From the IMG/VR virus record IMGVR_UViG_3300044722_000026, positions 1-44,155 of that record: a stretch of DNA of 44,155 nt. The stretch is one strand, 5' to 3'. Both the position numbers and the translations under genes were made by a program. This DNA is from a virus. Every line of letters begins with the position of its first letter. Positions within the stretch are counted from its first letter, which is position 1. Below, piece by piece: positions 2,111 through 44,155 of the stretch. The notes beneath the pieces are model-generated. The model was given only the letters and a program-made list of their open reading frames with translations, did no database searches and was not told the origin of the DNA.

Positions 2111-3423
2111 AATCTGGATTGCCAAAAGACGGGGTTGGTCGCGCTGTTGAAGTCGGCGGGGCGGACGAGGCCAGCCGCGGTGTCCTCGGCCGGGGTGGTG
2201 TAGCCGGCGGTGCCGGCGACGGTGACGGTGACGGGAACGGTGAACGTGGTGGACGAGAGCACGGTGACGACGCGGTTGCCGTCGATGGTGGGCGTGGTGT
2301 TGCTGCCGCCGATGGCGGCGGTCTGGCCGCTGGTGAGTCCGTGCGCGGTGGAGGTGGTGACCACGCTCGAGGCGGCGACGGTGGCGCCGGTGATGACGAG
2401 CTGGCGCAGGCGCCAGAGGAGCGGCGCATCGTCCACCTGCACCGCGAGCAGGGTGCCGACGGCGAAGGTGCTGAGCGTGGCCAGGGCGTCGAGCTTGCCG
2501 GCGGTACCGCCGGTGAGGCCGGTGACGTCGTAGTAGTTGAGCGCGATCCGCGCGGGGACCGGGTAGGCCGGGGTGGCGTCGGTGGCGGTGCCTTCGCCGC
2601 CCTGGTTCACATCGTGGAAAAGCCGGACGGTGAAAGTCTGGCTCGAGATCACGGCGCCGTTGGCCGTGGCTTCGATCTCGGCCATGAGGTCGATGTATTC
2701 GACGTCGGCGAGAGTGTTGGGGAGACTGCCGTTGATCCACGTGCTGACGGTGAACGACGTGGTCTCAGCGGTGGCGTTGGTGCGATTGCCGAGATCGGGA
2801 TCCGTGACGGTGACGAGATTGCCGAGCGCGGTGCAGGTGAAGACGTCGGTATTAAGCGCGGCCGCGAGGACGGTGGCGATCTGCGCGGCCGTCATGTTGC
2901 CGGTCACGGTGGTGATCTCGAGCGCGCGGGTGCAGGCGGCGGCGCCGACGGGGATGGTGGTACCGGCGTTATTTACGTCGATCCACACGCCGACGCTGCC
3001 GGCGGCGTCCCACAGCTTGAAGAAGGTGCCGTTCACGCTGACCTGGTCGTCGCCCACGGTCCGGATCTCGGTGACCTCGGCGAAGCCGAGCGGGTCGTAG
3101 CCGAGGAGGTTGTTCGCCTTCACGGTGTTCCAACTCGGCGCGACGGTGTAGGTGGTGGTGATGCCGCTGCCGGTGACCGTGACGGCCCAGCTCGCGCCGT
3201 TGTAATTGCTCACCACATAGCTGCCGTCGTAATCGCCGGCGACTTTGCAGCCGAATTTGAAAGTCAGCGGGGTGGCGAGGGCGCTGACGACGCCGTCGGT
3301 GTGGATCTGGATGGGGACTTGCGAGGAGTCACCACGCTTGATCTCAAAGGGCAGCGTCGCGGAGACGCGCTGGAACAGGCTGTCGGTGATCGCTCCGTCT
3401 GTGAGGTTTTGGTAGAGGCGCAC
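2107..3423 (-). CDS. Large tail/baseplate protein upstream of fibre
   Basis: This 438-residue protein begins at GTG 3423 (MRLYQNLTDG). It is low in charge and rich in Thr, Val, Ala and Gly. The C-terminal part holds the phage structural signature LTSGQTAAIGGSNTTPTIDG followed by RVVTVLSSTTFTVPVTV, a beta-structured module often seen in tail appendage proteins. It overlaps the fibre gene by four bases, which suggests coupled translation and an assembly partnership. A TTGACA box lies 16 nt upstream of the start (3440-3445). It is not assigned to a named family. Confidence 0.7.
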   Translation of the reverse strand: MRLYQNLTDGAITDSLFQRVSATLPFEIKRGDSSQVPIQIHTDGVVSALATPLTFKFGCKVAGDYDGSYVVSNYNGASWAVTVTGSGITTTYTVAPSWNTVKANNLLGYDPLGFAEVTEIRTVGDDQVSVNGTFFKLWDAAGSVGVWIDVNNAGTTIPVGAAACTRALEITTVTGNMTAAQIATVLAAALNTDVFTCTALGNLVTVTDPDLGNRTNATAETTSFTVSTWINGSLPNTLADVEYIDLMAEIEATANGAVISSQTFTVRLFHDVNQGGEGTATDATPAYPVPARIALNYYDVTGLTGGTAGKLDALATLSTFAVGTLLAVQVDDAPLLWRLRQLVITGATVAASSVVTTSTAHGLTSGQTAAIGGSNTTPTIDGNRVVTVLSSTTFTVPVTVTVAGTAGYTTPAEDTAAGLVRPADFNSATNPVFWQSRL

Positions 3424-3465: not shown

Positions 3466-3574
3466 GGTTGATGGTTGAGAGTTGATGGTTGATAGGGCCG
3501 CCGCCTGGCCGCTTTGCCCGCCGCTCTCCGCGCGCATTTTTCCGCCCATCAACCATCAACTCTCACCTATCAAC
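3466..3574. repeat. Heptad-repeat inverted element A
   Basis: The left arm (3466-3496) is four GTTGAtg-type heptamers. The right arm (3547-3574) is their near-perfect inverse, separated by a 50-nt GC-rich loop. A homologous element lies at 11255-11360. It overlaps the 3' end of the o-spanin gene and fills the gap before the next gene. It could fold as a hairpin in the late transcript. Confidence 0.7.
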
Positions 3575-3724
3575 TTTCTCCCCCTCCCCCTGCCAGCCGC
3601 CGACGGTGTAGGTCGGTTTCGTGCCCGCTGTGTTCGCTTGCCAGATCTCCTCTTGCGTGGTGGAGCAGGCGGGGAGGAGGGCGATGGCGAGGACGGCGGC
3701 GAGGAGCAGGAGGAGGCGTTTCAT
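3563..3724 (-). CDS. Small lipoprotein, candidate Rz1-like o-spanin
   Basis: This is a 53-residue protein starting at ATG 3724. Positively charged MKR is followed by a Leu/Ala hydrophobic run and the lipobox LPAC, with Cys20 the expected lipidated residue. The mature part is only 34 residues, ending in a polar G/E/K-rich tail. It lies directly downstream of the endolysin, as Rz1-type outer-membrane spanins do. A coiled-coil inner-membrane partner is encoded at 277-780. Assignment rests on lipobox, size and position; it is not strikingly proline-rich like lambda Rz1. Confidence 0.7.
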   Translation of the reverse strand: MKRLLLLLAAVLAIALLPACSTTQEEIWQANTAGTKPTYTVGGWQGEGEKVDR

Positions 3725-3757
3725 AGTCCCGGCCGGCTGTCAGCCGGGGGGGAGATT

Positions 3758-3818
3758 CTTGGTGCTTGGTTCTGGGTTCTTGGTTGGAACGAAGAACGAA
3801 GAACAAAGAACGCAGAAC
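3758..3818. repeat. Heptad-repeat hairpin between endolysin and lipoprotein
   Basis: CTTGGTG/CTTGGTT-type heptamers (3758-3787) are followed by GAACGAA/GAACAAA heptamers (3788-3818). The arms are partly complementary (14 of 17 in the best register), so the element can fold back. A separate 15-bp palindrome, CCGGCTGTCAGCCGG, lies at 3733-3747. Confidence 0.6.
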
Positions 3819-9618: not shown

Positions 9619-9791
9619 GGTGGGAAAAACGCGGTGAGAGAAGAGGCGGAGACGAGAGCAGGCGCCGGCGTGGGAATCGGCACAGTAATGACATTCCGGA
9701 CAGCGGAAGGGGGGCGCGCGGAGCCATTGCTCCATTACTCCATTACTCCCGGAGTGGTGGAGCGGTGGAGTGATGTGAGTGGCGACGTGAG
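9619..9791. other. Intergenic gap with repeat hairpin
   Basis: This 173-bp gap has no gene I can support. At 9730-9775 it holds CTCCATTA repeats followed by GGTGGAG(T/C) repeats that are partly complementary and can form a hairpin. A short frame running into the next start as ATGA exists on the minus strand but has no ATG, so I do not call it. Confidence 0.55.
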
Positions 9792-11217: not shown

Positions 11218-11254
11218 GGTGCTGCCCGCGCGCTGTCAACGGGGGGCGGCGGAG

Positions 11255-11360
11255 GGTTGATGGTTGAGAGTTGATGGTTGATAGGCCGCCGCCTCGCCGC
11301 TCTTCAGCCGCGCTCCGCGCGGGGGTTCCGCCTATCAACAATCAACTCTCAACTATCAAC
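11255..11360. repeat. Heptad-repeat inverted element B
   Basis: This is a close relative of element A at 3466-3574. The left arm (11255-11285) has the same GTTGATG/GTTGAGA heptamer order. The inverse right arm (11331-11360) overlaps the stop of the upstream gene, with a GC-rich loop between. Arms are more conserved than the loop between the two copies, which favours a folded RNA or DNA role. Confidence 0.7.
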
Positions 11361-11832
11361 TCTCTGCCGTGTGTTCCGTCCCCACCGCCTTCACCTCGAT
11401 GACGTAGCTCTCGGTGCGGAGATCGCCCTCGATCGAGCGGGCGCAGCCGGCGGTGCGGATGGCGAGCATGACGGCGATGGCCCACGTGCTCGAGGTCAGG
11501 GCGGTCCCGAGATTGGTCGTATCGAGCAGGGTCTCGAGCGCGCCGCAAAGCGACTGGAAGGGATCGGCCTGGCCGCCCGGGACCTTGGCGTTGCCGCGGA
11601 TCGCGAACTCGAGCCGGAAGTTGCGGATGGGCGCATACTTCGCGGTGCGGCCTTCGTCGGTCGCGGAGATGATCAGGCGCGGGCGCTTGGGCTTGTCGGA
11701 CTCGGGCGTGATGGCGGTGTCTTCGTCGCGGCGCTTGACCTCGAGCGCGGCGAGAGCGGGCACGGTGATCGCGAGATCCCGAGCGGCGTGCATGAGCCGG
11801 AGGCCCAGCGGGAGAGTGAGCGGATCACTCAT
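11356..11832 (-). CDS. Candidate tail terminator/completion protein
   Basis: This 158-residue protein overlaps the upstream gene by eight bases. The pattern PFQSLCGALETLLDTTNLGTALTS and the beta-rich C-terminus (LRTESYVIEVKAV) resemble small minor-tail proteins that cap the tail tube. It lies immediately before the candidate tube gene, as terminators do. No decisive motif is visible, so the call rests on position and size. Confidence 0.55.
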   Translation of the reverse strand: MSDPLTLPLGLRLMHAARDLAITVPALAALEVKRRDEDTAITPESDKPKRPRLIISATDEGRTAKYAPIRNFRLEFAIRGNAKVPGGQADPFQSLCGALETLLDTTNLGTALTSSTWAIAVMLAIRTAGCARSIEGDLRTESYVIEVKAVGTEHTAES

Positions 11833-12395: not shown

Positions 12396-12426
12396 GGGCT
12401 AAAGACTAAAGGCTAAAGGGCTAAAC
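12396..12426. repeat. Period-7 tandem repeat in late gap
   Basis: Four CTAAAG-type heptamers run through the 41-bp gap and the stop codon of the upstream gene. Unlike the other heptad elements, no complementary arm is evident. Confidence 0.55.
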
Positions 12427-13608
12427 GGCCGTGAGCGCGATGTCGTCGTGCGAGGCGCCGGTCCCCTGGTTGGTCCAGCGCGTGGCGAAGCCGACGCGTG
12501 GGATCTTGCCGACCTCGGTGGCGACGGCGCCGAGTGCGGATGCGGTGGCGAGCGCGGCGAGGGCGGTGTCGAGATTGGCCGCAGCCAGGCCCAGGGCGTC
12601 GCGCGTCTCGGCGGCGCTGAGGATGGTGTTCATGATCCCCGTGGTGGCATCGATGATGAGGGATTCATCCGCGGGGTCGCTGGGGAGGTTGTCGGTCTTG
12701 GCCTTGATCGCGGCGATGCCGGTGTTGTCCGGGGAGGTGTAGGAGAAGGTCGCCATCCGGGAGGAGACGGAGGCATCGATGCGGCCGAGTTCCGTGGTCA
12801 GCTCGGTGCGCACGGCGCTGGCATTGGCCGCGGCGGAAGGCGGCGCGGTGTAGGCGAAGGTGGCCATCCGGGAGGAGACGGCGGCGTCGATGCGGCCGAG
12901 TTCCGTGGTCAGCTCGGTGCGCACGGCCGTGGCATTGGCCGCGGCGGAAGGCGGCGCGGTGTAGGCGAAGGTGGCCATCCGGGAGGAGACGGCGGCGTCG
13001 ATGCGGCCGAGTTCCGTGGTCAGCTCGGTGCGCACGGCCGTGGCGTTGGCGGCGGCGGAGGGCGGCGCGGTGTAGGCGAAGGTGGCCATCCGGGAGGAGA
13101 CGGAGGCGTCGATCCGGCCGAGTTCCGTGGCCAGCTCGGTGCGCACGGCCGTGGCATTGGCGGCGGCGCTCGGGGCCGCGGCGGCGTCGGTGAACCCGGT
13201 GATGTTGGTGCCCTTGGCGAGCGCGAGGCCAAAGGCGGCGCTCTGGTTGTTCACGGCGGTCAGCTCGATCTCCAGGTCGATCTGGGCCATGTTCGCCGCT
13301 CCCTTGAGGGTGATGTGGACCCAGCCCGCGCCGGTCGCGAGGCAGGCGTCAGGGATGCCGAGCTCCATCGCGCCCGGCATGTTGGTGGCAGAGACTTCCT
13401 TGAAGGCGCCGCTCGTCCACGTCCCCAGCGTCGAGCTGGCCAGGGTGATCGAGGTCGCAGAAGACTCGCCCTCGCGGCGGTAGTAACCGGTCAGCGAAGC
13501 CGTGTTGTAAGCGAGCCCGATCAGCTTGCCGCCGACTGACGACGAGGAATCGGAGACGACGACTTCCACGCTCTTGCTGGTGGTGCCTTTGACGAGGGAG
13601 AGTTTCAT
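12421..13608 (-). CDS. Repeat-containing structural protein
   Basis: This 395-residue protein has a globular N-terminal domain (about 1-140) resembling small beta-rich appendage domains (VSDSSSSVGGKLIGL, GYYRREGESSATSITL). Four repeats of 37 residues follow, built around PSAAANATAVRTELTTELGR and SSRMATF.YTAP, then a helical C-terminus. The repeats are helical and fibre-like. At DNA level they have a 111-bp period (12752-13195) and are nearly identical. A head fibre, neck or tail appendage is likely; position favours the head-tail junction. Confidence 0.65.
   Translation of the reverse strand: MKLSLVKGTTSKSVEVVVSDSSSSVGGKLIGLAYNTASLTGYYRREGESSATSITLASSTLGTWTSGAFKEVSATNMPGAMELGIPDACLATGAGWVHITLKGAANMAQIDLEIELTAVNNQSAAFGLALAKGTNITGFTDAAAAPSAAANATAVRTELATELGRIDASVSSRMATFAYTAPPSAAANATAVRTELTTELGRIDAAVSSRMATFAYTAPPSAAANATAVRTELTTELGRIDAAVSSRMATFAYTAPPSAAANASAVRTELTTELGRIDASVSSRMATFSYTSPDNTGIAAIKAKTDNLPSDPADESLIIDATTGIMNTILSAAETRDALGLAAANLDTALAALATASALGAVATEVGKIPRVGFATRWTNQGTGASHDDIALTAV
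12752..13195. repeat. Four 111-bp direct repeats
   Basis: The anchor GCCATCCGGGAGGAGAC recurs at 12752, 12863, 12974 and 13085, an exact 111-bp period. Most differences between copies are single bases. They encode 37-residue repeats, so copy number could vary by recombination without breaking the frame. Confidence 0.9.
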
Positions 13609-15545: not shown

Positions 15546-15618
15546 CTCCACCACTCCCCTACTCCACCACTCCCCGGGAGCGGTGGAGTGGTGGAGCGGT
15601 GGAGTGGTGGAGTGGTGG
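15546..15618. repeat. Period-8 repeat hairpin in late gap
   Basis: CTCCACCA/CTCCCCTA repeats are followed immediately by GGTGGAGT/GGTGGAGC repeats. The two arms are complementary, with almost no loop, so a long hairpin or cruciform is possible. It occupies the gap between the GT-methyltransferase and the 155-residue gene. Confidence 0.7.
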
Positions 15619-15629
15619 CTGAGGCCCTG

Positions 15630-17039
15630 TCAAAGCCAGGTGCGGCGGGCGGGGTCGTAGGTGACGTCGGCGTGGCAGGAGTTACAGCGGCCGCCGTCTT
15701 CGGTGATGGTCACCGCGAGGTGCGGACAAGTGCGCACAAACCAGCAGCGGCCGATGCGCTCGACGATGGCCTCGCCGGTAAATGGGAAGACTTCGCGAAC
15801 CGCGGCGTGGACGGAATCGTAGTCGTAATCGTGGCCGCCGATCAGGCCGCCGGGCTTGAGCTTGGGGAGCCAGGCGCGCAGATCGGCGCGGACGGCTTCG
15901 TAGATGTGGTCGCCATCGATGAAGATGGCGTCGAAGGTGGCGTCGCAGAACATGTGGGCCGCCAGGGTGCTATCCATCTCGTAGATGGCCGGTGCCATGC
16001 CGAACTCGCGCATGGTGGACTCGAAGACGCCGCGGACGCTGCCACCGCACTCCTGGACCAGGCGGTAATGGACGTCGCCTTCGTTGGGGGTGCCCTGGAA
16101 GGTGTCGATCGCGGAGATACTGGCGGCCTTGCCTTCGGCCACGAGGAAGGTGCTGAAGGCCGCGAGGCTGCGGCCGAGCCAGCAGCCGATCTCGGCGACG
16201 CAGGCGTGATCGGGCAACTCTTTGGCGAAGCGACGATAGATCTCCGCGTCCGCATCGGAAAACCAGCCGGGCACGGCGTGCCAGCCGTCGGTGCGCTCGA
16301 GCTGGGCCCCGCTGAAGCGATAGACCTTGCTGCCTTCGTGCCCGAGCGCGATCCGGACGTCCACGAGCGTGGGGACGCCGAGGGCGCGGGCGCGTTCGCA
16401 GAAGAACCAGTCTTCGGAGATCCACTCGCGCAGCGGGTAGCCATCCGGGTCATGGGACTGAGGGGACGGATGGGACGGATAGACGGACATCGCGCCGGTG
16501 ACCACGCCGCTGGGGAAGAAGTCCCACTCGACGGCGCCGTGATTGTGGTAGCGCAGGGCGGGGCCGCCGTTGTCCTCTTTCATCGCCTCGAGCAATTCGC
16601 GCTTTACGAGCATGAAGCCGCGGCCGCAGCGGCGGACCGTGGCGAGATTCCGCGCGTCTGGAATCGGAAGCTCGTCAAAGGTGCCGATGCAGGGCGGCGC
16701 GTCGTCCTGCTTCTTCGGGTAGAGGCCATAGACGAGCGGGACGGCGGATGATCCGCTGCAATGGCTGAGGAGGTTTTCCACGTCGAGCGGGGTGAAGTGG
16801 ATGTCCGCGTCGAGATTGATCCAGACGTCGCAGTCGCTGGCTAGGAAGGCGTTGGCGACCTTGTTCATCCCGCGGTTCGCGTGGGAGTCGCTCGCTCGAT
16901 CGAGTTGCACGTCGCGGCCGGCGAAGGCCCGGGCGTGGCAGATCATGAAGCTGGCCATGACGGCGCCGTTGCCGTTGTCCAGGAGAGGGAGATAGATCCG
17001 GAGGCCGGAGGTCGGAGGTCGGAGGGCGGAGGTGGGCAT
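15630..17039 (-). CDS. Glycosyltransferase-methyltransferase fusion
   Basis: This 469-residue protein has two enzyme domains. The N-terminal part (about 15-255) looks like a GT-A glycosyltransferase, with INLDADIHF at 74-82 giving the DxD (Asp77-Ala-Asp79) and ISEDWFFCERA near 207-217. The C-terminal part is a class I SAM methyltransferase: motif I EIGCWLGRS at 283-291 and FIDGDHIYEAV at 373-383. A short Cys/His tail (CPH, then CNSCH) may bind metal. The first residues (MPTSALRPPTSGLR) are encoded by a period-7 repeat. It probably modifies virion or host glycans. Confidence 0.8.
   Translation of the reverse strand: MPTSALRPPTSGLRIYLPLLDNGNGAVMASFMICHARAFAGRDVQLDRASDSHANRGMNKVANAFLASDCDVWINLDADIHFTPLDVENLLSHCSGSSAVPLVYGLYPKKQDDAPPCIGTFDELPIPDARNLATVRRCGRGFMLVKRELLEAMKEDNGGPALRYHNHGAVEWDFFPSGVVTGAMSVYPSHPSPQSHDPDGYPLREWISEDWFFCERARALGVPTLVDVRIALGHEGSKVYRFSGAQLERTDGWHAVPGWFSDADAEIYRRFAKELPDHACVAEIGCWLGRSLAAFSTFLVAEGKAASISAIDTFQGTPNEGDVHYRLVQECGGSVRGVFESTMREFGMAPAIYEMDSTLAAHMFCDATFDAIFIDGDHIYEAVRADLRAWLPKLKPGGLIGGHDYDYDSVHAAVREVFPFTGEAIVERIGRCWFVRTCPHLAVTITEDGGRCNSCHADVTYDPARRTWL
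17000..17033. repeat. Period-7 repeat at start of the GT-methyltransferase gene
   Basis: GGAGGTC-type heptamers occur about four times on the + strand. They encode the first dozen residues of the enzyme, so either the repeat is translated or the true start lies further in. No other start codon is available before residue 28. Confidence 0.6.
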
Positions 17040-17056: not shown

Positions 17057-17133
<77 letters not shown>

Positions 17134-20116: not shown

Positions 20117-20350
20117 GTGAAAACCGTGGGCAGCAATGCCGAACAACCTGCCCCGGCTACCACACCGGGCAAACGAAAGCCATGTTCGCCAGCAGAGGTG
20201 CTCGTTGCCTTGGAGGAATCCGTCAAATTGCAGAGCCACTACGCGAGGCTTCTCAATAGTTGGGACGGCGGAACCCGGATCCGCTTCAAAAACGCAGACG
20301 AGTGGATTGCTCGTCTCCGCGAAACAGGAACCCTGCCCAGTCTTACGTAA
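20117..20350 (+). CDS. Small accessory protein on opposite strand (moron-like)
   Basis: This 77-residue protein probably starts at GTG 20117. The C-terminal two-thirds (VALEESVKLQSHYARLLNSW then DGGTRIRFKNADEWIARLRE) looks like a genuine folded helical protein. It is convergent with the 78-residue gene on the minus strand. Both reading frames end inside the same 16-bp palindrome (20339-20354) with the residues S-L-T and overlap by eight bases. The gene is placed within the head operon against the direction of late transcription, as morons often are. Confidence 0.6.
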   Translation: MKTVGSNAEQPAPATTPGKRKPCSPAEVLVALEESVKLQSHYARLLNSWDGGTRIRFKNADEWIARLRETGTLPSLT

Positions 20351-20354
20351 GACT
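20339..20354. repeat. CTTACGTAAG palindrome, copy 1
   Basis: AGTCTTACGTAAGACT is a perfect 16-bp palindrome that supplies the TAA stop codons of both converging genes. Related copies are at 24302, 29562 and 37737. Confidence 0.75.
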
Positions 20355-24301: not shown

Positions 24302-24317
24302 ATCCTTACATAAGGAG
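24302..24317. repeat. CTTACRTAAG palindrome, copy 2
   Basis: ATCCTTACATAAGGAG contains the stop codon of the DUF3102-like gene. On the minus strand the downstream half (AAGGAT) serves as a Shine-Dalgarno-like sequence for the next gene. Confidence 0.65.
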
Positions 24318-24875
24318 ACCAGCCACCCACTCGCGGCCGCCGATTTCGATGATGCGCCGCACCACGGGCTCGAGGTCGTGGCGGAGGACGTCGGGTTCCG
24401 GCGCGGTGGCGAGGCCGATCTTGCACTGCTGGTCCCACTTGAAGAACTGGTTCACGAAGGTGAGCGGGTGCGGGGTCGGGGTGATCCTCTGGTCGCCCGG
24501 GAGCTCCGGGCGCTCCTTGGCGGGGATGTAGCCCCAGAGAAACTTGCGGATCGACTCCGCGTTCAAATCCGTGGAATCCACGGATTTGGCGTCGTTTTCC
24601 CGAAAGAGGGTCATGCAGCGCTGGCTATTGCGCTCGCCCAGGTCGGGCCAATTGCCCCCCAACCAGAAGAGCCAGCGGCCGTGGCCGATCGCGTCCTTGA
24701 TGCGCACGAGGATCCCGCCAAGGCGGAAAGCGAGCATGAGCAGCTCGTCGCGTTTGAGGCGGAGGACCTGCTCGGCGCTGACGATCTCGGCGTAGGTTTC
24801 CTTGGCCGCTTCCAGGAGCGGCCGGACGCGTTCGGCGAGCTCGAGGCTGTCGCGGGTGGCGAGATCGGTGCTCAT
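24306..24875 (-). CDS. DUF3102-like phage protein
   Basis: This 189-residue helical protein has the segment LGGILVRIKDAIGHGRWLFW then LGGNWPDLGERNSQRCMTLF. That matches the pattern of DUF3102-type proteins (a helix with 'K..IGHG.W..WL', then an HTH-like 'S.RT.QR.M'). It is probably DNA-binding. The location between accessory genes and the head module is unusual for a regulator. It overlaps the upstream gene as ATGA. Confidence 0.65.
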   Translation of the reverse strand: MSTDLATRDSLELAERVRPLLEAAKETYAEIVSAEQVLRLKRDELLMLAFRLGGILVRIKDAIGHGRWLFWLGGNWPDLGERNSQRCMTLFRENDAKSVDSTDLNAESIRKFLWGYIPAKERPELPGDQRITPTPHPLTFVNQFFKWDQQCKIGLATAPEPDVLRHDLEPVVRRIIEIGGREWVAGLLM

Positions 24876-28940: not shown

Positions 28941-29385
28941 GGCTGCGGAGACGTTTCGCCGGCATGGAGCGGAACGAGGCGAAGAGCTCGTTGATGAGGT
29001 CCGGCGTGAGGGCTTTGCCTTTGGCGTTTTTGAGTCCCGCGGCGATCGCCTGGAACGTCTCGTTATCAACGGCATCGATGACGTCGTGTGGAATTCGCTC
29101 GCGCTGCAGCTCCTCGTTTTTTAGGCGGAAGTTCTTCGCCTGCTCGCGGTCCTTGTCGATGCGCGGGTCGGCGCCGAAGACCGCCTCGCAAATGGCGTGT
29201 GTCGAGAACTTCCCGTCACCCCCCTCCTCAATGCTCTTCTCGCGAATGCGCTTCGCGAGTGTGCGACGGTCGAGGCCGAATTCCGTGGCCGCATGCTCTA
29301 CGGTCCACCGCACGGCTTTCGAGGGCCGTCCCTGTCCGCGGTCGCTGGTGCTTGGAGTTGCTCGATGCTCACGCTTTTTCGTCAC
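28933..29385 (-). CDS. Terminase small subunit
   Basis: This 150-residue protein has the Nu1-like plan. The HTH region is WTVEHAATEFGLDRRTLAKR then IREKSIEEGGDGKFSTHAIC, and a charged helix (KDREQAKNFRLKNEELQRER) follows for oligomerisation. It recognises the packaging site and feeds DNA to the large subunit directly downstream. It starts at GTG 29385, with a TTGACC box 13 nt upstream (29399-29404). Confidence 0.88.
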   Translation of the reverse strand: MTKKREHRATPSTSDRGQGRPSKAVRWTVEHAATEFGLDRRTLAKRIREKSIEEGGDGKFSTHAICEAVFGADPRIDKDREQAKNFRLKNEELQRERIPHDVIDAVDNETFQAIAAGLKNAKGKALTPDLINELFASFRSMPAKRLRSRG

Positions 29386-29577
29386 CCACCCAGCGAGGGG
29401 TCAACCTTTTGTGGACATCATGGGCCCATCCCATCTAGCGCGAAATGGGGAGTCCGGAACCCGCGTGGGAATTTTGGGCCGGGAAGGACCCGTCGCTTTC
29501 GCACGGGTGAGAGGCCGTCGCACAGGTGCGAAGCCCTCGCATCTTTGCGAGGGCCGCGAGCGTCCTTACGTAAGGAC
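29386..29577. other. Intergenic region before terminase genes
   Basis: This 192-bp non-coding region separates the early operon from the packaging module, so it is the natural place for a late promoter or a packaging (cos/pac-like) site. It contains a perfect 8-bp hairpin with 4-nt loop at 29534-29553 (CCCTCGCA/TGCGAGGG), the palindrome at 29562-29577 and the TTGACC box at 29399-29404. No T-tract follows the hairpin, so it is not a standard terminator. Confidence 0.6.
29562..29577. repeat. CTTACRTAAG palindrome, copy 3
   Basis: GTCCTTACGTAAGGAC is a perfect 16-bp palindrome that abuts the stop codon of the upstream gene. Confidence 0.75.
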
Positions 29578-30481: not shown

Positions 30482-30702
30482 GTCTCAACGAGCTCCGGAT
30501 TTCTGAGATCAATCTCGAAGTCTTTGGGAACCCGACCGCGCCGGAAAAGCTTCTGCCGGTGTACAAGCGCGAGGCTGTAGCAGGCCTCGGGATAGCTTGG
30601 AGCGTCAATGAGGACTTCGTGCTCTTTGCCGTTCGCGCGGAACCGAAAACGATATCTAAATAGCGGACCCGTGACAATCGGACGGAACTTGCTGGTGATC
30701 AT
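30478..30702 (-). CDS. Small basic early protein
   Basis: This 74-residue protein starts at ATG 30702, overlapping the ParB stop as ATGA. It is basic and beta-rich (LFRYRFRFRANGKEHEVLID) with an acidic C-terminus. The tight overlap on both sides supports it. Function is unknown. Confidence 0.6.
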   Translation of the reverse strand: MITSKFRPIVTGPLFRYRFRFRANGKEHEVLIDAPSYPEACYSLALVHRQKLFRRGRVPKDFEIDLRNPELVET

Positions 30703-32555
30703 TTGCGCTTCTTCGCCCATCGGGCTCGTTGCACAGCGGCAATCCTCGCTTTCGCCTCGGGAGTTAGCAGGCTGCGACCTTTCTTTACCACTGGCGGCCG
30801 CTTCGATGGCTTCGCCGCGACGACATTTCCAGACGGGTGGAATTGCTCTTCGATGCGCTTCACATCCACGCCCCAGAGCCCGCACAAGGTGAGTAGCGAC
30901 TTATCCCAGGAGCCCTGGGCAAAGTCGAACGGAGCCCACTGCCAGGCGATCGACTCCATGATCATCCCGCGCAGTTCTTTCGCGTTGAAACCCTGGACCC
31001 GCTCTTCCAATGCCTCTTTCAGGCGATTGCTCGGGACATCCTTCAACCCTCGGCGATCGACGACCTGTTTGGTGCGCTCGCCCGAGCTCGTGATCCGGCC
31101 CAGCACTCTCTCGCAGACCAGGTGCAGGAATCGCTCGTTCTCCCCTGCCCGCTCGGCCGCGACGACCAACTCATCGAGGATGCGGTTCCAGACGGCTCGG
31201 CGGACCTTCGCACGATCGCGCTTCTGCGCAGCCTCCGCGCGTTCGGCACTTTGCAGTAGCAACTCGTTCACAACGCTCGCACCGCGCGGCCGATTCTTTT
31301 GCACGGCCGCCTCCGCGAGCTTCAGATCGTACACGATCTCCGGTGAACCGTCGGGCGCCCTAGCCAGCACCGGATCAGGAGCATGTTTCCCCATCGCCTT
31401 GGTCCAGGACTTGTACCCGATGAAGTCAAAGTTTCGTTCCGAGGCACCGCACACAAAGCCTGAGTGCGGGTCCACGTGATTGACGCCGTGACGGAACACT
31501 CGCTGGTTCTCCGCGTCCGTCAGGACTTTCCTACCCATCGCCTGGTACGCAGCGCGCTGGCTTTGCCACAGCGCGAGGCGATGCTCGCGCTTCTCCGCCT
31601 CCTCGACCAGGCGCTGGCTTTCGCGAAACGGAATTGGCGCGTTGCCTGGCGTGTTGGCGATCGTGGCCGCGAGCGATTCCACGGTTTTAGGATCGTGGAT
31701 CTTCTTTGACCCTCCCAGCAAGGCCGCGTGCGACGCTGGCAGCCGGCCGGTGCTGACCAGGTCCCGCGCTTTCTCAGGTAGCTCGAGTAATGTGAGCCGC
31801 TCGTAAATGACTGACTTCTCCTTGTGCAGCCGCGTCTTGATTCGCTCGATCGCTTCCACCTTACCCATCCCCTCGCCAATGTAGGCATCGCGGAGCTGCT
31901 GATACATGCGGGCCTCTTCCATCGGGTTAAGGTTCTTGCGCTGGAAATTCTCCTCGCCCTGGAGCTCGAGGGCCTCGGTGTCGCCCACGTCCCGCACGTT
32001 CGCTGGGAACAGCGCTTTGGCTGCCTTGGCGGCGAGCCAGCGGCGCTCCCCGGCGATGAGCTGCCACTTGATCAGCGGCTTGGCGGGATCGGGCTTTACC
32101 GGCCGGATGATCCCGTTCTGCAACACACCGCGCAGTTTGACGCTGTCGATCAATTCGATCGTCTCCGGCTCATCGATCCCGATCACACGGTTGAACGGTG
32201 ATCGTTCGATTGTCTCCGGGTCATAGAGCTGCACGCCGTCGCGATTGGGCACGCGCTCCAGGCCCCGCGCCTCAGCGAGAAAGGCGTTCTGCTCGTCGCG
32301 AGGTAAGCCGCGAAACTCCGACTCGTTCGCGCAGCCGGCCGCGGCGATCGCTTTGCGCATCAGCTCCTCGAGGCTCATCGCAGCCTCTAGCACGGTCGGC
32401 GCCTCGCTGCCATTGGTCGCCGGCTTGAAGCGGCCTGACGGCTCTTCTTTCATTGCCGCGGAGAGTCTGCTCCCGGGCAATGCTGGGGCGGGCTTCTTCG
32501 CCGGTTTCTTGGCCGCGGTAATGGAGCTGGGGACGACGGTCGTTTGTACTCGCAT
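30699..32555 (-). CDS. Large ParB-like protein
   Basis: This 618-residue protein has the ParB/Srx-type N-terminal fold at about 105-215. It carries the signatures IAGERRWLAAKAA (167-179) and EENFQRKNLNPMEEA (201-215), followed by an HTH-like region (about 230-290, KEKSVIYERLTLLELPEKA). The C-terminus is long and basic, ending TPEAKARIAAVQRARWAKKRK-like. No ParA ATPase is encoded nearby, so plasmid-style partition is doubtful; DNA-binding regulation, CTPase-based spreading or nuclease activity is more likely. Copy 4 of the 18-bp motif lies inside. Confidence 0.8.
   Translation of the reverse strand: MRVQTTVVPSSITAAKKPAKKPAPALPGSRLSAAMKEEPSGRFKPATNGSEAPTVLEAAMSLEELMRKAIAAAGCANESEFRGLPRDEQNAFLAEARGLERVPNRDGVQLYDPETIERSPFNRVIGIDEPETIELIDSVKLRGVLQNGIIRPVKPDPAKPLIKWQLIAGERRWLAAKAAKALFPANVRDVGDTEALELQGEENFQRKNLNPMEEARMYQQLRDAYIGEGMGKVEAIERIKTRLHKEKSVIYERLTLLELPEKARDLVSTGRLPASHAALLGGSKKIHDPKTVESLAATIANTPGNAPIPFRESQRLVEEAEKREHRLALWQSQRAAYQAMGRKVLTDAENQRVFRHGVNHVDPHSGFVCGASERNFDFIGYKSWTKAMGKHAPDPVLARAPDGSPEIVYDLKLAEAAVQKNRPRGASVVNELLLQSAERAEAAQKRDRAKVRRAVWNRILDELVVAAERAGENERFLHLVCERVLGRITSSGERTKQVVDRRGLKDVPSNRLKEALEERVQGFNAKELRGMIMESIAWQWAPFDFAQGSWDKSLLTLCGLWGVDVKRIEEQFHPSGNVVAAKPSKRPPVVKKGRSLLTPEAKARIAAVQRARWAKKRK
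30826..30843. repeat. 18-bp dispersed near-palindrome, copy 4
   Basis: TTTCCAGACGGGTGGAAT matches the consensus at 17 of 18 positions. It lies in the ParB-like gene, read in the coding strand as F-H-P-S-G-N. Confidence 0.6.
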
Positions 32556-32959: not shown

Positions 32960-33153
32960 CGCCGCCCTTCCGGTTGCGCGTCCCTAGGCTTGAGCTCAGC
33001 CTGGAGCTCCATCAGTAGGTCCAGTCTCCCCCAGTGAAATGCAGCTCGGTAACCGTCGCGGTGTTCCCAGTGCCTTATCAGCTTTCTCTCCTCTGCACAC
33101 GCGGCTTCCATCTCAGCCGCCGCCTCTTGCGGAGATCTTGCCTTGTCGCTCAT
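32956..33153 (-). CDS. Small helical early protein
   Basis: This 65-residue protein starts MSDKARSPQEAAAEMEAACA. It is highly charged, with a likely coiled-coil first half and WEHRDGYRAAFHWGRLDLLM. It overlaps the replication-like gene upstream and the zinc-ribbon gene downstream by four bases each. Function is unknown. Confidence 0.6.
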   Translation of the reverse strand: MSDKARSPQEAAAEMEAACAEERKLIRHWEHRDGYRAAFHWGRLDLLMELQAELKPRDAQPEGRR

Positions 33154-34253
33154 GCGAAGAGTGCGGTGGCTTTGCGCAGCAGCGCCGCGAGCGCCCGCCA
33201 GCGCGGCTGGGTGCCGTTGAGCTTCTTGCGCATGTATTCCTGGTCACAGGGCAGCAGGCGATCGCTGAGGCCCATCTCCACGGCGCGCGAGACATAGCCG
33301 TCCAGGATCCATGACCAGGGCACGGCGATCGGCGGCAGCGCCCGGCCGCGGTCGTGGTAGGCGTCCACCGTCACTCGCATCGGCCGCGTCAGGACCTCCA
33401 GGCGCTTGTGCCAGAGCTTGCCGTATTTCGCCAACTGCTCCGGTCCCAGCGCTGCCTCCATGCGCTCCACGAGAGCGATGTCGGGTACAAACCCGGCGAT
33501 CAAAGCCATCGGCGAAGCCGCGCTTTCGAGCCGCTGCCCCGCAGCACTTTCCCCCTTTAAAGCTTTTAAAGGTTCCATGGTAGGAACTTTAAGCTTTAAA
33601 GGAGGGCCAGTTGTACCCGGTACGACCGCCTCCGTTTCCTCTGTAACCTCACACATTGAGGTCCCACTCGTACCGGGCACGAGTGGCTGAACCACGTCGG
33701 AATCGCCGCACCGAATTCCCCCGGTCGTACCGGGTACAAGTGCCCCAACTCCCGCGCTACTGTCAAGATCGCGGCTGGCCGCGACGAACCCGTCTTCCAG
33801 ATCGCGTTCCCGCTCGAATAGAACGCCCTGCTCCGGATCGCGACCATCCCGGAGCAGCGCGAGCGCACGCTCCGCGCGCGCTAAAACCTCGTGGGTGTAC
33901 CGGTCGGGCAGTTGCCAATTCTGCCAGGCCGGTTTGATTTCAAAAATCGTCTCGATGCACGTGGCCACCACCCGGCCGGAGCGCCGCTGCACCCTCTCCT
34001 CACGCCGGCGGAAGATTTTCGCCTTTTCGCCGGCATCCAGCACCTTGCTCAGATTGCCCACGCAATTGATCTTCGCCGCCGCGGCGAGCAACTCCAGGCG
34101 ATAGACCCGCGCCTCGCTCTTCGGCTCTGGAGCGGCAAAGGAAAGCTGCAGCAGCACCTCCAGGACGCGGGCGACCTGCTCCGGCACGTTGCGCGTTTCC
34201 ACTCCCTCACGGCACTGCATGTACCAATCCAGGTATGGGATTTCCTCGCTCAA
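33150..34253 (-). CDS. Candidate replication initiator with intragenic iterons
   Basis: This 367-residue protein starts at TTG 34253. The TTGA overlap with the upstream stop and GGAGG about 8 nt before support this start. The N-terminal region (about 20-110) is helical with a basic wing-like segment (KIFRRREERVQRRSGRVVAT). A middle linker (about 160-235) carries VPGT three times at an exact 19-residue period (173, 192, 211). The C-terminal domain (about 240-367) is helical. No enzyme motif is seen. A lambda-O-like initiator whose gene contains the origin fits the DNA structure, but this is inference. Confidence 0.5.
   Translation of the reverse strand: MSEEIPYLDWYMQCREGVETRNVPEQVARVLEVLLQLSFAAPEPKSEARVYRLELLAAAAKINCVGNLSKVLDAGEKAKIFRRREERVQRRSGRVVATCIETIFEIKPAWQNWQLPDRYTHEVLARAERALALLRDGRDPEQGVLFERERDLEDGFVAASRDLDSSAGVGALVPGTTGGIRCGDSDVVQPLVPGTSGTSMCEVTEETEAVVPGTTGPPLKLKVPTMEPLKALKGESAAGQRLESAASPMALIAGFVPDIALVERMEAALGPEQLAKYGKLWHKRLEVLTRPMRVTVDAYHDRGRALPPIAVPWSWILDGYVSRAVEMGLSDRLLPCDQEYMRKKLNGTQPRWRALAALLRKATALFA
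33554..33602. repeat. AT-rich inverted repeat inside initiator-like gene
   Basis: Arms CCTTTAAAGCTT (33554-33565) and AAGCTTTAAAGG (33591-33602) are perfect inverse complements. The 25 bases between them continue the partial symmetry. This is among the most AT-rich stretches of the early region and sits beside the iterons, so it is a candidate DNA-unwinding element. Confidence 0.7.
33613..33737. repeat. Three GTACCSGGYAC iterons at 57-bp spacing
   Basis: GTACCCGGTAC at 33613, GTACCGGGCAC at 33670 and GTACCGGGTAC at 33727 are each 57 bp apart. Two are perfect 11-bp palindromes around a centre base. They lie in the disordered linker region of the gene and adjoin the AT-rich inverted repeat. 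Confidence 0.75.
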
Positions 34254-34456
34254 ACCGCGGCCTCCTCTCTTGGCAACAGCCATTCGATCACCGCGCCGTC
34301 GTTGCGCTGCGCGAGTTCCTGGGCCTCATCCCGACGCACAAAGACCAGCGCCTGTCCGGACTCGATCGTGCGGCTGCCATTCTTGGCCGCGAGATAAGAG
34401 CGCGGCTGTCCCTTTCGATCCATAGCCACCACGTAGCGAGGAACCAGGTCGCTCAT
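34250..34456 (-). CDS. Small early protein
   Basis: This 68-residue protein starts MSDLVPRYVVAMDRKGQPRS. It is compact and beta/alpha (ESGQALVFVRRDEAQELAQR), with its end overlapping the TTG start of the initiator-like gene. Its own start overlaps the HTH gene by four bases. Function is unknown. Confidence 0.6.
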   Translation of the reverse strand: MSDLVPRYVVAMDRKGQPRSYLAAKNGSRTIESGQALVFVRRDEAQELAQRNDGAVIEWLLPREEAAV

Positions 34457-34773
34457 GCGGCCTCCCTTCGGTCGCCGCGGCGAACCAAGGTCGAGAGTTC
34501 TTTGACCGCTTCAACCAGGCGCGGATCGCGGATGAAGAGCAGGCGGTTGTGCAGCTTCCGCAGCGCCTTTTGCTCGATCGCATAAATCAGCCCACGGGCG
34601 CATCCACACCAGGCGGCGATGTCCGCTTGGGTAAGTGGCACACCTGGCCGGGCCAGGCATTGGAGGATGGCCAAGCCTAGATCGATGCGCGCCGTCCGTT
34701 CGAGAGCGGCGCCGGCGCCATGCACAATGCCAAATTCGGATTTTCCCGAGATACGAATCGGCGCCCTGACCAA
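34453..34773 (-). CDS. Sigma-region-4-like HTH protein
   Basis: The product is up to 106 residues, with the start uncertain (TTG 34773 or an internal GTG). The C-terminal half, VPLTQADIAAWCGCARGLIY followed by AIEQKALRKLHNRL, follows the sigma-70 region 4 / LuxR-type HTH pattern, with the recognition helix ending in 'ALRKL'. It is the first gene of the second early operon. A perfect 18-bp palindrome overlaps its start, which suggests autoregulation. A transcription activator of the replication or late genes is plausible. Confidence 0.65.
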   Translation of the reverse strand: MVRAPIRISGKSEFGIVHGAGAALERTARIDLGLAILQCLARPGVPLTQADIAAWCGCARGLIYAIEQKALRKLHNRLLFIRDPRLVEAVKELSTLVRRGDRREAA

Positions 34774-35367: not shown

Positions 35368-35669
35368 CAAAAAACCCTCCCTGGACTGCAGGCTCCATAG
35401 GTCTGGCTCTCCCGCACCGGCAGCGGCGCGCCGGCTTGCATCGCCGCGATAAACTCGTCCGTGGTCCCGCCGCATTGGCGGACGCAGCAGTCGGCGAGCG
35501 GCCCCCATTGCTCGAGCGTCACCCGCTCTCCGTCCACCATGAAACAAAGCACGCTGCCCAGTCCTTCCAAATACACGCGCAGCGGAATGAAGGAGCGCAC
35601 CGGCACCTGGTCATCCGGGAAGATCCCGCAGAATGGAGATTCCGGCCGGAGCCGCGCGGTCGCATTCAT
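35364..35669 (-). CDS. Small early protein
   Basis: This 101-residue protein starts MNATARLRPESPFCGIFPDD. It is beta-rich in the middle (SFIPLRVYLEGLGSVLCFMV) with several Cys (CCVRQC), and ends GRVFW. It overlaps both neighbours by four bases in the first early operon. Function is unknown. Confidence 0.6.
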   Translation of the reverse strand: MNATARLRPESPFCGIFPDDQVPVRSFIPLRVYLEGLGSVLCFMVDGERVTLEQWGPLADCCVRQCGGTTDEFIAAMQAGAPLPVRESQTYGACSPGRVFW

Positions 35670-36280
35670 CGGGCACCTGCCTTCGCTGTGCGCGCCGTCG
35701 CGAGCGCGATGTCCTTGGCCTGGCTGAGCGACGCAAAGGCCTCGTGTGAGCCGCCAGGCACGTCGGGGTGCGCCATCTTCGCCTTCGCGCGCCAGGCATC
35801 CACGATCTGCGCCTCAGTCGCCGCCGGCGCAATGCCGAGCGCTTCCCAGCAACTCGCTTCGGTCCTTTCGTTGAGCGCCGCGTAGCCCGCGAAATCGCGT
35901 TCGAGCGAACTCACCCCCCAGCGCTGCTGGCCGCGCAACGCCTCCACGTGTTTCGCGATCGCGTAGAGGTTCTCTTCCACCGTCATCCACTTATCGCACG
36001 GCAGGACGACCCGCTTTTCGGCGAGCGTGAAATAAACGGCCACACCGGCGTCGCGAGGTCGCGCCTGGTTGGCGTAAGGACGGCCGTCCAGCCGCGTTTG
36101 CACATTGGTCGAGATCATGTAGCGCACTGCTCCGAGCCGTCGCAATTCACCCTCGACCGCATCCAGCGCCGTGGTCATCGATACATCCCCGCGGCCGCGG
36201 TGACCGAACTTCGAGCGCTTCGGAAACTTGGACCGCGGCCAGCCTAGCGGCCAGGCCAGGGGGTAAGTCGTCTCGCTCAA
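35666..36280 (-). CDS. J-domain protein
   Basis: The TTG start at 36280 overlaps the upstream TGA, with GGAGGAAGG upstream, and gives 204 residues starting SETTYPLAWPLGWPRS. The C-terminal 55 residues form a J-domain: LGIAPAATEAQIVDAWRAKA, then HPD (171-173), then the helix EAFASLSQAKDIAL. The middle domain (about 35-120) has the pattern VYFTLAEKRVVLPCDKWMTV typical of this phage family. J-domains stimulate DnaK ATPase, so it may recruit host chaperones for replication. Confidence 0.8.
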   Translation of the reverse strand: MSETTYPLAWPLGWPRSKFPKRSKFGHRGRGDVSMTTALDAVEGELRRLGAVRYMISTNVQTRLDGRPYANQARPRDAGVAVYFTLAEKRVVLPCDKWMTVEENLYAIAKHVEALRGQQRWGVSSLERDFAGYAALNERTEASCWEALGIAPAATEAQIVDAWRAKAKMAHPDVPGGSHEAFASLSQAKDIALATARTAKAGAR

Positions 36281-37719: not shown

Positions 37720-37985
37720 GCGGCCACCGCCTTTCCATCCTTACATAAGGACGTTGGCTTGATCCGCGCGCAGTCGTAGCCGCCGGCACCGCAACCCTCG
37801 ACCTTCACCACCCAGCCGCCGTGGCCCAGCGTCCACGGCAGCGAAGCCAGGCGCGAATTCATGAGCTGGCCGTTGTCGAGCTCCACCACCACCGGCATGC
37901 CGATCGTGTCGAGCCGCATGGCCGACTTGTAACTCGCCAGGATCGCCTTTCCCGGCGGCCGCTTGATGGGCCTCGTGATCCTCAA
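37716..37985 (-). CDS. Small early protein
   Basis: This 89-residue protein starts MRITRPIKRPPGKAILASYK. It is basic at the N-terminus and beta-rich in the middle (MPVVVELDNGQLMNSRLASL). The C-terminal codons pass through a CTTACRTAAG palindrome (37737-37752). Function is unknown. Confidence 0.6.
   Translation of the reverse strand: MRITRPIKRPPGKAILASYKSAMRLDTIGMPVVVELDNGQLMNSRLASLPWTLGHGGWVVKVEGCGAGGYDCARIKPTSLCKDGKAVAA
37737..37752. repeat. CTTACRTAAG palindrome, copy 4
   Basis: ATCCTTACATAAGGAC lies about 20 bp inside the 3' end of an early gene. It is the only copy that is wholly inside a coding region. Confidence 0.65.
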
Positions 37986-40143: not shown

Positions 40144-40217
40144 TGCGAATGATTAATAATCTTTACCAAAACGCCGTGCAATAAAAATCTTGTGTTATTC
40201 TTGTGAGGAATTAAGAA
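40144..40217. promoter_or_regulatory. Divergent promoter/operator region
   Basis: This 74-bp AT-rich region lies between divergent ribbon-helix-helix genes. A leftward promoter candidate has TTGCAC (40176-40181), a 17-bp spacer and TATTAA (40153-40158), so transcription would start within a few bases of ATG 40143. The perfect palindrome GATTA-A-TAATC (40151-40161) covers that -10. For the rightward gene only GAGGAA (40205-40210) is clear as ribosome binding site, 7 nt before ATG 40218. Confidence 0.6.
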
Positions 40218-42736: not shown

Positions 42737-44155
42737 ATGAGCAAGCACAAGCGCCGGGACAACTTCGCCGTGGCCGGCCCGATCCGGGTCCGCTGGCACA
42801 AGCTCACCGATGGGCGCACCGTCGTCGATCCGCGCCGCTACGGCCGCAAGCGGCAGACCTTCACCGATCACGCCGAGGCCTTGCGCGAGGCGCGCACGGT
42901 CGCCCTGGCGATCTACGGCGGCGGCGCCGAAGCCGCGGCCCTCACTCCCGCGGATCGCGCCGGCTACGCCCACGTCGTCGCCGAGGCGCGCAAGCATGGC
43001 GTCGATCCCGTGGCGGCGATCAGCGAATGGAGCGAGCAACGGCGGGCCATCGCCGGCAGCCGGCACACCCTGGCGGCGGTCGTCGCCGCCGGGCTCACCG
43101 CCTTGCGCCGCGTGCCGCATCTCGTGCCCGACGTGGGGCGCGAATTTATCGCCAGCAAAGCGTCGCAGGATCTCGACGGCCGCTACCTGCGCGGCATCGC
43201 GAGCACCTGGCGAATCATGGCCGAGCGATTCCCCGGCGCCGATATTCGCGAGCTCACCACGCAGGACCTGGTGCGGCTCCTCGATGGCGAGATCGAGTCC
43301 GGCCAGCGCGTGGGCGGGCTGCGCAAACGCAATGGTGAGATCCTCGGCACCCGCCGGCGCGACAACATCCTCGATGAGATCCGCCAGGGGTTTCAGTTCG
43401 CGCGGATCCGCGGCTATCTGCCCGATGAGATCAGCGCCGCGCGCCAGGTGCCGATGCTGCACAAGCTCGGCACGCCCATCAGTTTCTTCACCGTTGTCGA
43501 GATGCGGCTCATCCTCGAGCACGTGGCCGACGAGTGGCGTCCCTTCGTCATCTTCGCCTGCTTCTCCGGGCCCCGCACCGGCGAGCTCGCCATTTCCAAA
43601 GACGCGAAGAAGAGCAAGGACCCGCTGCGGTGGGAGGACATCGATTGGGAAGAGCGCGAGATCCACATCCGCGCCGAGACCTCGAAGATCGGCCGCGTGC
43701 GCATCGTGCCGCTGCTCGACAACGCCTACGAGTGGCTGCTCCCGCACCGGCGCGACACCGGCACCATCGCGCCGGCCGGCGAACGGCCCGACCGCGAGTT
43801 CGGCAAAGGCGGCCGGCTCGAAAAGGCGATCAACGAAGCCCTGCAGACCGCGCCACGGCTGACGAACGAGAGGCCCGTGCAATTGCAGATGGAATCGATC
43901 GATCCCGCACCGCTGCCGCTGCTCACCGAATTCACGTGGCGCAACAACGCGCTCCGGCACAGCTACGGCAGCTACCGGGCGACGATCCTGCGCAACCTCC
44001 ACCAGCTCGCCGACGAAATGGGCAACAGTCCGGAGATCTGCGCCCGCCACTACCGCAACCCGCGGCCCAAGAGCCAGGCCAAGGCGTGGTTCCAGATCAT
44101 GCCACCGAAGCCGGTGGCGAACATCGTGCAACTCCCCAGCCAGGCGGTCGCGTGA
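42737..44155 (+). CDS. int: Tyrosine recombinase (phage integrase)
   Basis: This 472-residue protein has an N-terminal arm/core-binding part (about 1-240) and a C-terminal catalytic domain. The first catalytic Arg is in FACFSGPRTGEL (Arg280) and the second in NALRHSYGSY (Arg407). The nucleophile is in ICARHYRNP (Tyr439). Two usual histidines are replaced: the first of HxLRH by Asn404 and that of LGH by Asn430 in MGNSP. I associate this variant with verrucomicrobial recombinases. It would integrate and, with an excisionase, excise the prophage. Its gene ends with the window. Confidence 0.88.
   Translation: MSKHKRRDNFAVAGPIRVRWHKLTDGRTVVDPRRYGRKRQTFTDHAEALREARTVALAIYGGGAEAAALTPADRAGYAHVVAEARKHGVDPVAAISEWSEQRRAIAGSRHTLAAVVAAGLTALRRVPHLVPDVGREFIASKASQDLDGRYLRGIASTWRIMAERFPGADIRELTTQDLVRLLDGEIESGQRVGGLRKRNGEILGTRRRDNILDEIRQGFQFARIRGYLPDEISAARQVPMLHKLGTPISFFTVVEMRLILEHVADEWRPFVIFACFSGPRTGELAISKDAKKSKDPLRWEDIDWEEREIHIRAETSKIGRVRIVPLLDNAYEWLLPHRRDTGTIAPAGERPDREFGKGGRLEKAINEALQTAPRLTNERPVQLQMESIDPAPLPLLTEFTWRNNALRHSYGSYRATILRNLHQLADEMGNSPEICARHYRNPRPKSQAKAWFQIMPPKPVANIVQLPSQAVA

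Follow-up and report, generated by a model that had tools for sequence, protein, structure and literature searches.

The window is the complete IMG/VR record IMGVR_UViG_3300044722_000026 (44155 bases), and the source phage looks temperate from its gene content. The right end encodes a tyrosine integrase (42737-44155; phrog_1, E=5e-15). The genes for a gpA-type terminase, a lambda-family portal and a phage capsid are on the minus strand, and the early region (~30-41 kb) is also read leftward. In this early region we identified a candidate initiator gene (33150..34283, minus strand), flanked by the genes for a small HTH-like protein and a ParB-like protein. The former (34453..34773, minus strand) lies upstream and has weak, below-cut-off HTH matches. 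The ParB-like protein (30699..32555, minus strand; ParB_N and HTH_ParB) is encoded downstream in the same operon, with two small genes separating it from the candidate initiator gene; no accompanying ParA was seen. Also encoded upstream in the early region is a J-domain protein with the HPD motif (35666..36274, minus strand; phrog_9210, with function listed as unknown in PHROGs), which has relatives in Synechococcus, Erythrobacter, Caulobacter and Microbacterium phages. Helicase, helicase loader and primase domains were not recognized among the early genes scanned, and neither a lambda P-like loader gene nor a DnaB-like helicase gene was found among the scanned neighbours of the candidate initiator gene.

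The product of the candidate initiator gene, P0001, has 377 aa if translated from the ATG at 34283 and 367 aa if translated from the TTG at 34253. The TTG is the likelier start because AGGAGG occurs 7 nt upstream and because the ORF before it (34250-34456) has a stop codon that overlaps it; the original prediction had ended the gene at 34253, in agreement with this choice. P0001 has no match in Pfam, PHROGs or PDB and belongs to no recognized family. Searches of Pfam and PHROGs gave no winged-helix match and no HMM match to O-like families (e.g., phrog_678 and phrog_391). Searches of viral contigs, genome contigs, and phage and plasmid records identified no close relatives, and 388 genomes, sampled from the phylum around an Akkermansiaceae genome, gave no convincing match. 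The sole match is a weak one (23%, E=2.6e-4), over the C-terminal part, to a protein of phage G001 that in turn has weak similarity (E=0.0019) to a replication initiation protein in PHROGs. Single-sequence structure models of P0001 are poor (mean pLDDT 41 for the full length and 51 for the N-terminal 160 residues), and neither of these two low-confidence models demonstrates a winged helix or DNA-binding domain.

Within the gene, a linker-coding segment (33540..33760, minus strand, ~residues 175-250) contains three palindromic sites and an AT-rich inverted repeat, none of them assigned to a strand. The motif GTACCSGGYAC has only three exact matches in the 44155 bases, all in this segment, with cores starting at 33613, 33670 and 33727 and thus 57 bp and 57 bp apart. 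Allowing one mismatch gives 8 matches, where 1.39 are expected and none of 100 shuffles reached 8. Iterons A (33607..33629; core GTACCCGGTAC, 33613-33623) and C (33721..33743; core GTACCGGGTAC, 33727-33737) are imperfect inverted repeats, whereas iteron B (33664..33686) is a 23-bp near-perfect palindrome, CCACTCGTACCGGGCACGAGTGG, with core GTACCGGGCAC at 33670-33680. Two of the three cores are perfect 5+1+5 palindromes; the middle core is imperfect, yet its 23-bp site forms 10 of 11 possible pairs, a level (at least 10/11) found at only four centres in the 44 kb. Across the three sites, 7, 8 and 10 of 11 pairs are symmetric. Each site provides two half-sites with a consensus of about CACTYGTACC. 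These six rank at the top of the record in a half-site matrix scan, with no seventh equally good site, although the ranking is circular in that the matrix was built from the same six half-sites. Iterons A and C match better inverted (25 nt, 92%) than direct. Beyond the 25-bp cores, similarity among the 57-bp units is at about the chance level (8-12/32 in direct register), and the three sites and their shared codons are therefore not explained by plain recent tandem duplication. When viral contigs were scanned, pairs of the palindrome 42-72 bp apart were found at 8 loci, three with 57-bp spacing (two of which are near-identical contigs). Their contexts look unrelated and lack a matching gene, so we rejected them as relatives and attribute them to coincidence or other regulatory repeats.

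Directly beside the sites is an AT-rich inverted repeat with low duplex stability (33551..33605; arms of type TTTAAAGCTT), a candidate DNA unwinding element. Its arms (33551-33565 and 33591-33605; 15 nt, 93%) include 12-bp perfect arms, CCTTTAAAGCTT, and the repeat is predicted to form a hairpin when single-stranded. A nearest-neighbour calculation ranks 33554-33603 second among the least stable 50-nt windows of the 44 kb record; other low-stability windows, at 40180, 34811 and 40119, are outside the larger genes. The original prediction had described three palindromes exactly 57 bp apart, an adjoining AT-rich inverted repeat with perfect 12-bp arms and the placement of both within the linker part of the protein. 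We recovered all of the palindrome positions and the spacing, found the sites to be the sole exact matches in the record, located the 12-bp arms inside the longer 33551-33605 repeat, and found that every element falls within the linker-coding segment.

Codon use in this segment is unusual for the phage. The mean relative codon frequency falls to 0.13-0.24 at residues 181-260 and is mostly 0.3-0.6 elsewhere, the first 15 residues also being low. The sites encode VPGT at residues 183, 202 and 221, every 19 residues. Gly is GGT in all three motifs (9% of Gly codons in the phage) and Val is GTA, GTG and GTA (GTA being 3% of Val codons). The AT-rich repeat uses TTA three times (~1% of Leu codons), CTT, and CCT four times. 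A crude ranking of all ORFs by repeat coverage was too noisy and was replaced by tests against synonymous permutations, in which near-identical 12-mer pairs within 250 nt were counted (n=300). The P0001 gene has 22 inverted pairs where 6.6 are expected, a count reached in 0/300 permutations; the palindromes and the AT-rich repeat both contribute to this signal. Of the controls, lambda O and P22 18, the positive ones, stand out through direct repeats (0/300); lambda P, P22 12, ParB, TerL, the portal and another early gene are not significant, and a borderline result was obtained for the capsid gene (inverted, 8/300). In a separate count, motif-like sites as numerous as observed arose in only 3-4 of 3000 synonymous shuffles. 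Because synonymous shuffles almost never recreate the repeats, and because rare codons are used, the data support DNA-level selection on the sites and not a protein repeat. The shuffle tests and the rare-codon use thus agree with the earlier suggestion that the VPGT repeat is a by-product of constraint on the DNA.

Relatives of the phage were found by a terminase-based search. One of these, G422 (IMGVR_UViG_3300013296_000696), has a terminase 58% identical, a ParB 37% identical and a J-domain protein 60% identical to those of the phage, along with a small protein that by inspection resembles the HTH-like protein. In a search by ParB it was the only clear orthologue, and the helix-turn-helix stretch is conserved between the two ParB proteins. 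Immediately upstream of its parB is an ORF encoding 379 aa (L188:6185-7324), which resembles the P0001 gene in operon position, size, layout and possession of in-gene palindromic repeats, but differs in repeat type and in protein sequence, for which BLASTP gave no meaningful alignment with P0001. Its linker DNA contains four palindromic ~23-bp repeats of type CGTGTGCGGAATTTCCGAACACG (at about L188 6805-6827, 6830-6852, 6849-6871 and 6879-6901), with centres 19-30 bp apart, that are significant in the same synonymous tests. The repeats are unrelated to GTACCSGGYAC, of which G422 has no copy at <=1 mismatch.

Two other relatives, G433 and G437 (terminases 42% and 44% identical), encode O-like initiators (phrog_678, E=2.8e-22, and phrog_391, E=7.5e-21, respectively), the linkers of which carry repeats of types AAAGGGCGAAC and GGGTGTCACCCA. 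In G433 the AAAGGGCGAAC repeat is translated in more than one frame, as KGE and as ERANG, which suggests that it is conserved as DNA. In-gene repeats were not detected by the synonymous-permutation test in the candidate initiators of G001, G425 and G428, and thus such repeats are common, not universal, in this set. The gene adjoining the candidate initiator of G001 (L174 3619-4953) has a long run of VWDSV/VRDSV-type repeats that is open in several frames.

Phages lambda, P22 and L each carry their own iterons inside the initiator gene (PMC8022706). The lambda iterons adjoin an AT-rich tract and are imperfect inverted repeats of ~18-19 bp, with a minimal iteron of ~19 bp; the tract is required for unwinding (PMC6022878, PMC7466680). 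The locus described here shares with ori-lambda in gene O several ~19-bp imperfect inverted repeats in the linker-coding part of an early-operon gene, under DNA-level selection as in lambdoid origins, and an easily melted AT-rich tract directly adjacent to them. It differs in that lambda has four closely packed sites at ~20-24 bp and this phage has three at 57 bp, in that the AT-rich tract is itself a long inverted repeat, in the lack of any sequence relation found between lambda O and P0001, and in the lack of a recognized P-like loader gene beside the initiator. The origins in gene 18 of P22 and of phage L are comparable in that distantly related initiator genes contain differing iterons in their coding sequences (PMC8022706), and P22 18 is positive in the same synonymous test as the P0001 gene. 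However, a DnaB-like helicase gene follows 18 in P22 and none was recognized in this phage. At the level of description, P1 is also similar: its lytic origin, oriL, probably lies within its own initiator gene, repL, and an AT-rich coding segment is affected by synonymous change (PMC9948254).

These elements sit inside the gene; that the gene encodes an initiator and that the DNA is its origin is our inference. We consider it probable that 33551-33743 is the phage replication origin, located inside the gene of its own initiator. An in-gene origin of the ori-lambda kind, with new sequences and spacing and an unrecognized initiator that would bind and activate it, is supported, not proven. This reading, which the original prediction had proposed, is favoured by the early-operon position, the adjoining meltable element, the behaviour of the lambda O and P22 18 controls, and the in-gene repeats of relatives. 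The strongest support is comparative, as the G422 gene beside parB carries different palindromic repeats. The cumulative GC-skew maximum is at 29206 (29.2 kb) and not at 33.6 kb, unlike what is predicted for a simple bidirectional origin at 33.6 kb, and is uninformative to slightly unfavourable. Also weighing against this reading are the orphan status of P0001, its poor structure models, the unusual 57-bp spacing, the lack of a recognized loader or DnaB-like gene beside it, and the repeat-free candidate initiators of G001, G425 and G428.

Other functions for the sites were considered. Plasmid centromeres contain repeated inverted repeats, and the sites could be parS-like partition or spreading sites for the lone downstream ParB and not an origin, given their palindromic form and regular spacing and the presence, two small genes away, of the gene for a ParB with HTH_ParB. 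We regard this as very unlikely because G422 lacks these sites (at <=1 mismatch) despite a related ParB (37% identical) with a conserved helix-turn-helix stretch. The sites vary along with the initiator, not with ParB, and a dispersed 16-bp palindrome, RTCCTTACRTAAGGAC (29562, 37737 and 24302), would suit ParB at least as well. A protein-level repeat, xVPGTtG at 19-residue intervals in the flexible linker, of which the DNA repeat would be a by-product, could account for the shared codon phase and peptide of the three sites, and linkers tolerate repeats. It is nonetheless highly improbable: rare codons occur where the palindrome needs them, A and C are more alike inverted than direct, the signal is lost on synonymous shuffling, and the adjoining AT-rich element has equally rare codons.

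Alternatively, the segment could be an operator or a structured RNA or ssDNA element of the early operon (autoregulatory sites, or a translation or transcription hairpin), with replication starting elsewhere. Single-strand folding of 33540..33760 is far better than that of shuffles (z = -8.0), its RNA reaches -106.9 kcal/mol against -80 kcal/mol for synonymous permutations (0/300 as stable), and a 25-nt pairing joins the two outer sites, A and C. However, palindromic binding sites fold by construction, and lambda iterons also form hairpins (PMC7466680). A terminator tail and a promoter-like site were not found near the segment, and the relatives carry tandem iterons, not a conserved hairpin. 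We think this alternative quite unlikely.

Returning to the origin interpretation, we suggest that the N-terminal part of P0001 would bind the three ~19-23-bp inverted repeats as dimers. The bound protein would wrap or bend the DNA and help to melt the adjacent AT-rich inverted repeat (33551-33605), after which the C-terminal domain may recruit the host replicative helicase. This domain, the part of P0001 that weakly matches the G001 protein, is the candidate helicase contact because no helicase, loader or primase was recognized in the early genes scanned. Initiation in lambda depends on the host DnaJ/DnaK system, and the upstream J-domain protein is accordingly an attractive candidate for an additional component. 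It is conceivable, though we hold it unlikely, that P0001 and its G422 counterpart form an unrecognized, very fast-diverging initiator family with widely spaced in-gene palindromes and operate alongside a lone ParB and the phage's J-domain protein, the latter supplying the DnaJ step that lambda borrows from the host.

A probable replication origin has thus been located in a temperate phage whose initiator escapes sequence recognition. Even where homology fails, in-gene repeats that are destroyed by synonymous shuffling can point to an origin and its initiator: lambda O, P22 18 and several of the metagenomic initiators, but not every one, are detected in this way. If the interpretation is true, the lambda-type arrangement extends to an orphan initiator.

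Several other repeats were identified in the record and its relatives. Imperfect 19-bp tandem and inverted repeats occur at 29390-29577, an apparently non-coding stretch directly upstream of the terminase small subunit gene and near the cumulative GC-skew maximum (29206), and may represent a cos or pac site. The dispersed palindrome RTCCTTACRTAAGGAC is present in three copies at <=1 mismatch (29562-29577, 37737-37752 and 24302-24317), and its core within 2 mismatches occurs 3 times where 0.03 are expected. Together with a related palindrome, AGTCTTACGTAAGACT, the set also includes 20339-20354, and both palindromes are possible ParB or repressor sites. In L181 and L183, GGTACCGGGCACCCC repeats (2695-2762 and 3300-3367), including two with 57-bp spacing, lie in a non-coding stretch beside TGTTTCACGTGAAACA, the classic parS sequence of chromosomes.

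A perfect 24-26-bp palindrome lies inside the gene downstream of the terminase (24564-24588). Palindromes of this length occur in an apparently homologous place in five related phages (also G001 31493, G420 23664/25803, G421 28932 and G422 18160/15646), and two of the five have another close to the 3' end of the terminase gene. They differ in sequence between phages (e.g., CAAATCCGTGGAATCCACGGATTTG and AAATTACCCGAGCTCGGGTAATTT) and are otherwise few in the 3.5 Mb of loci compared. Tandem repeats of 7-8 bp, often as facing pairs, are found mostly between late genes (3466-3818, 9724-9782, 11252-11364, 12397-12425, 15546-15618 and 16998-17033). In one late gene, an in-frame 111-bp unit is repeated nearly four times, the copies being 95% alike (12736-13168), and a tRNA-Met (CAT) gene is located among the late genes at 17057-17133.
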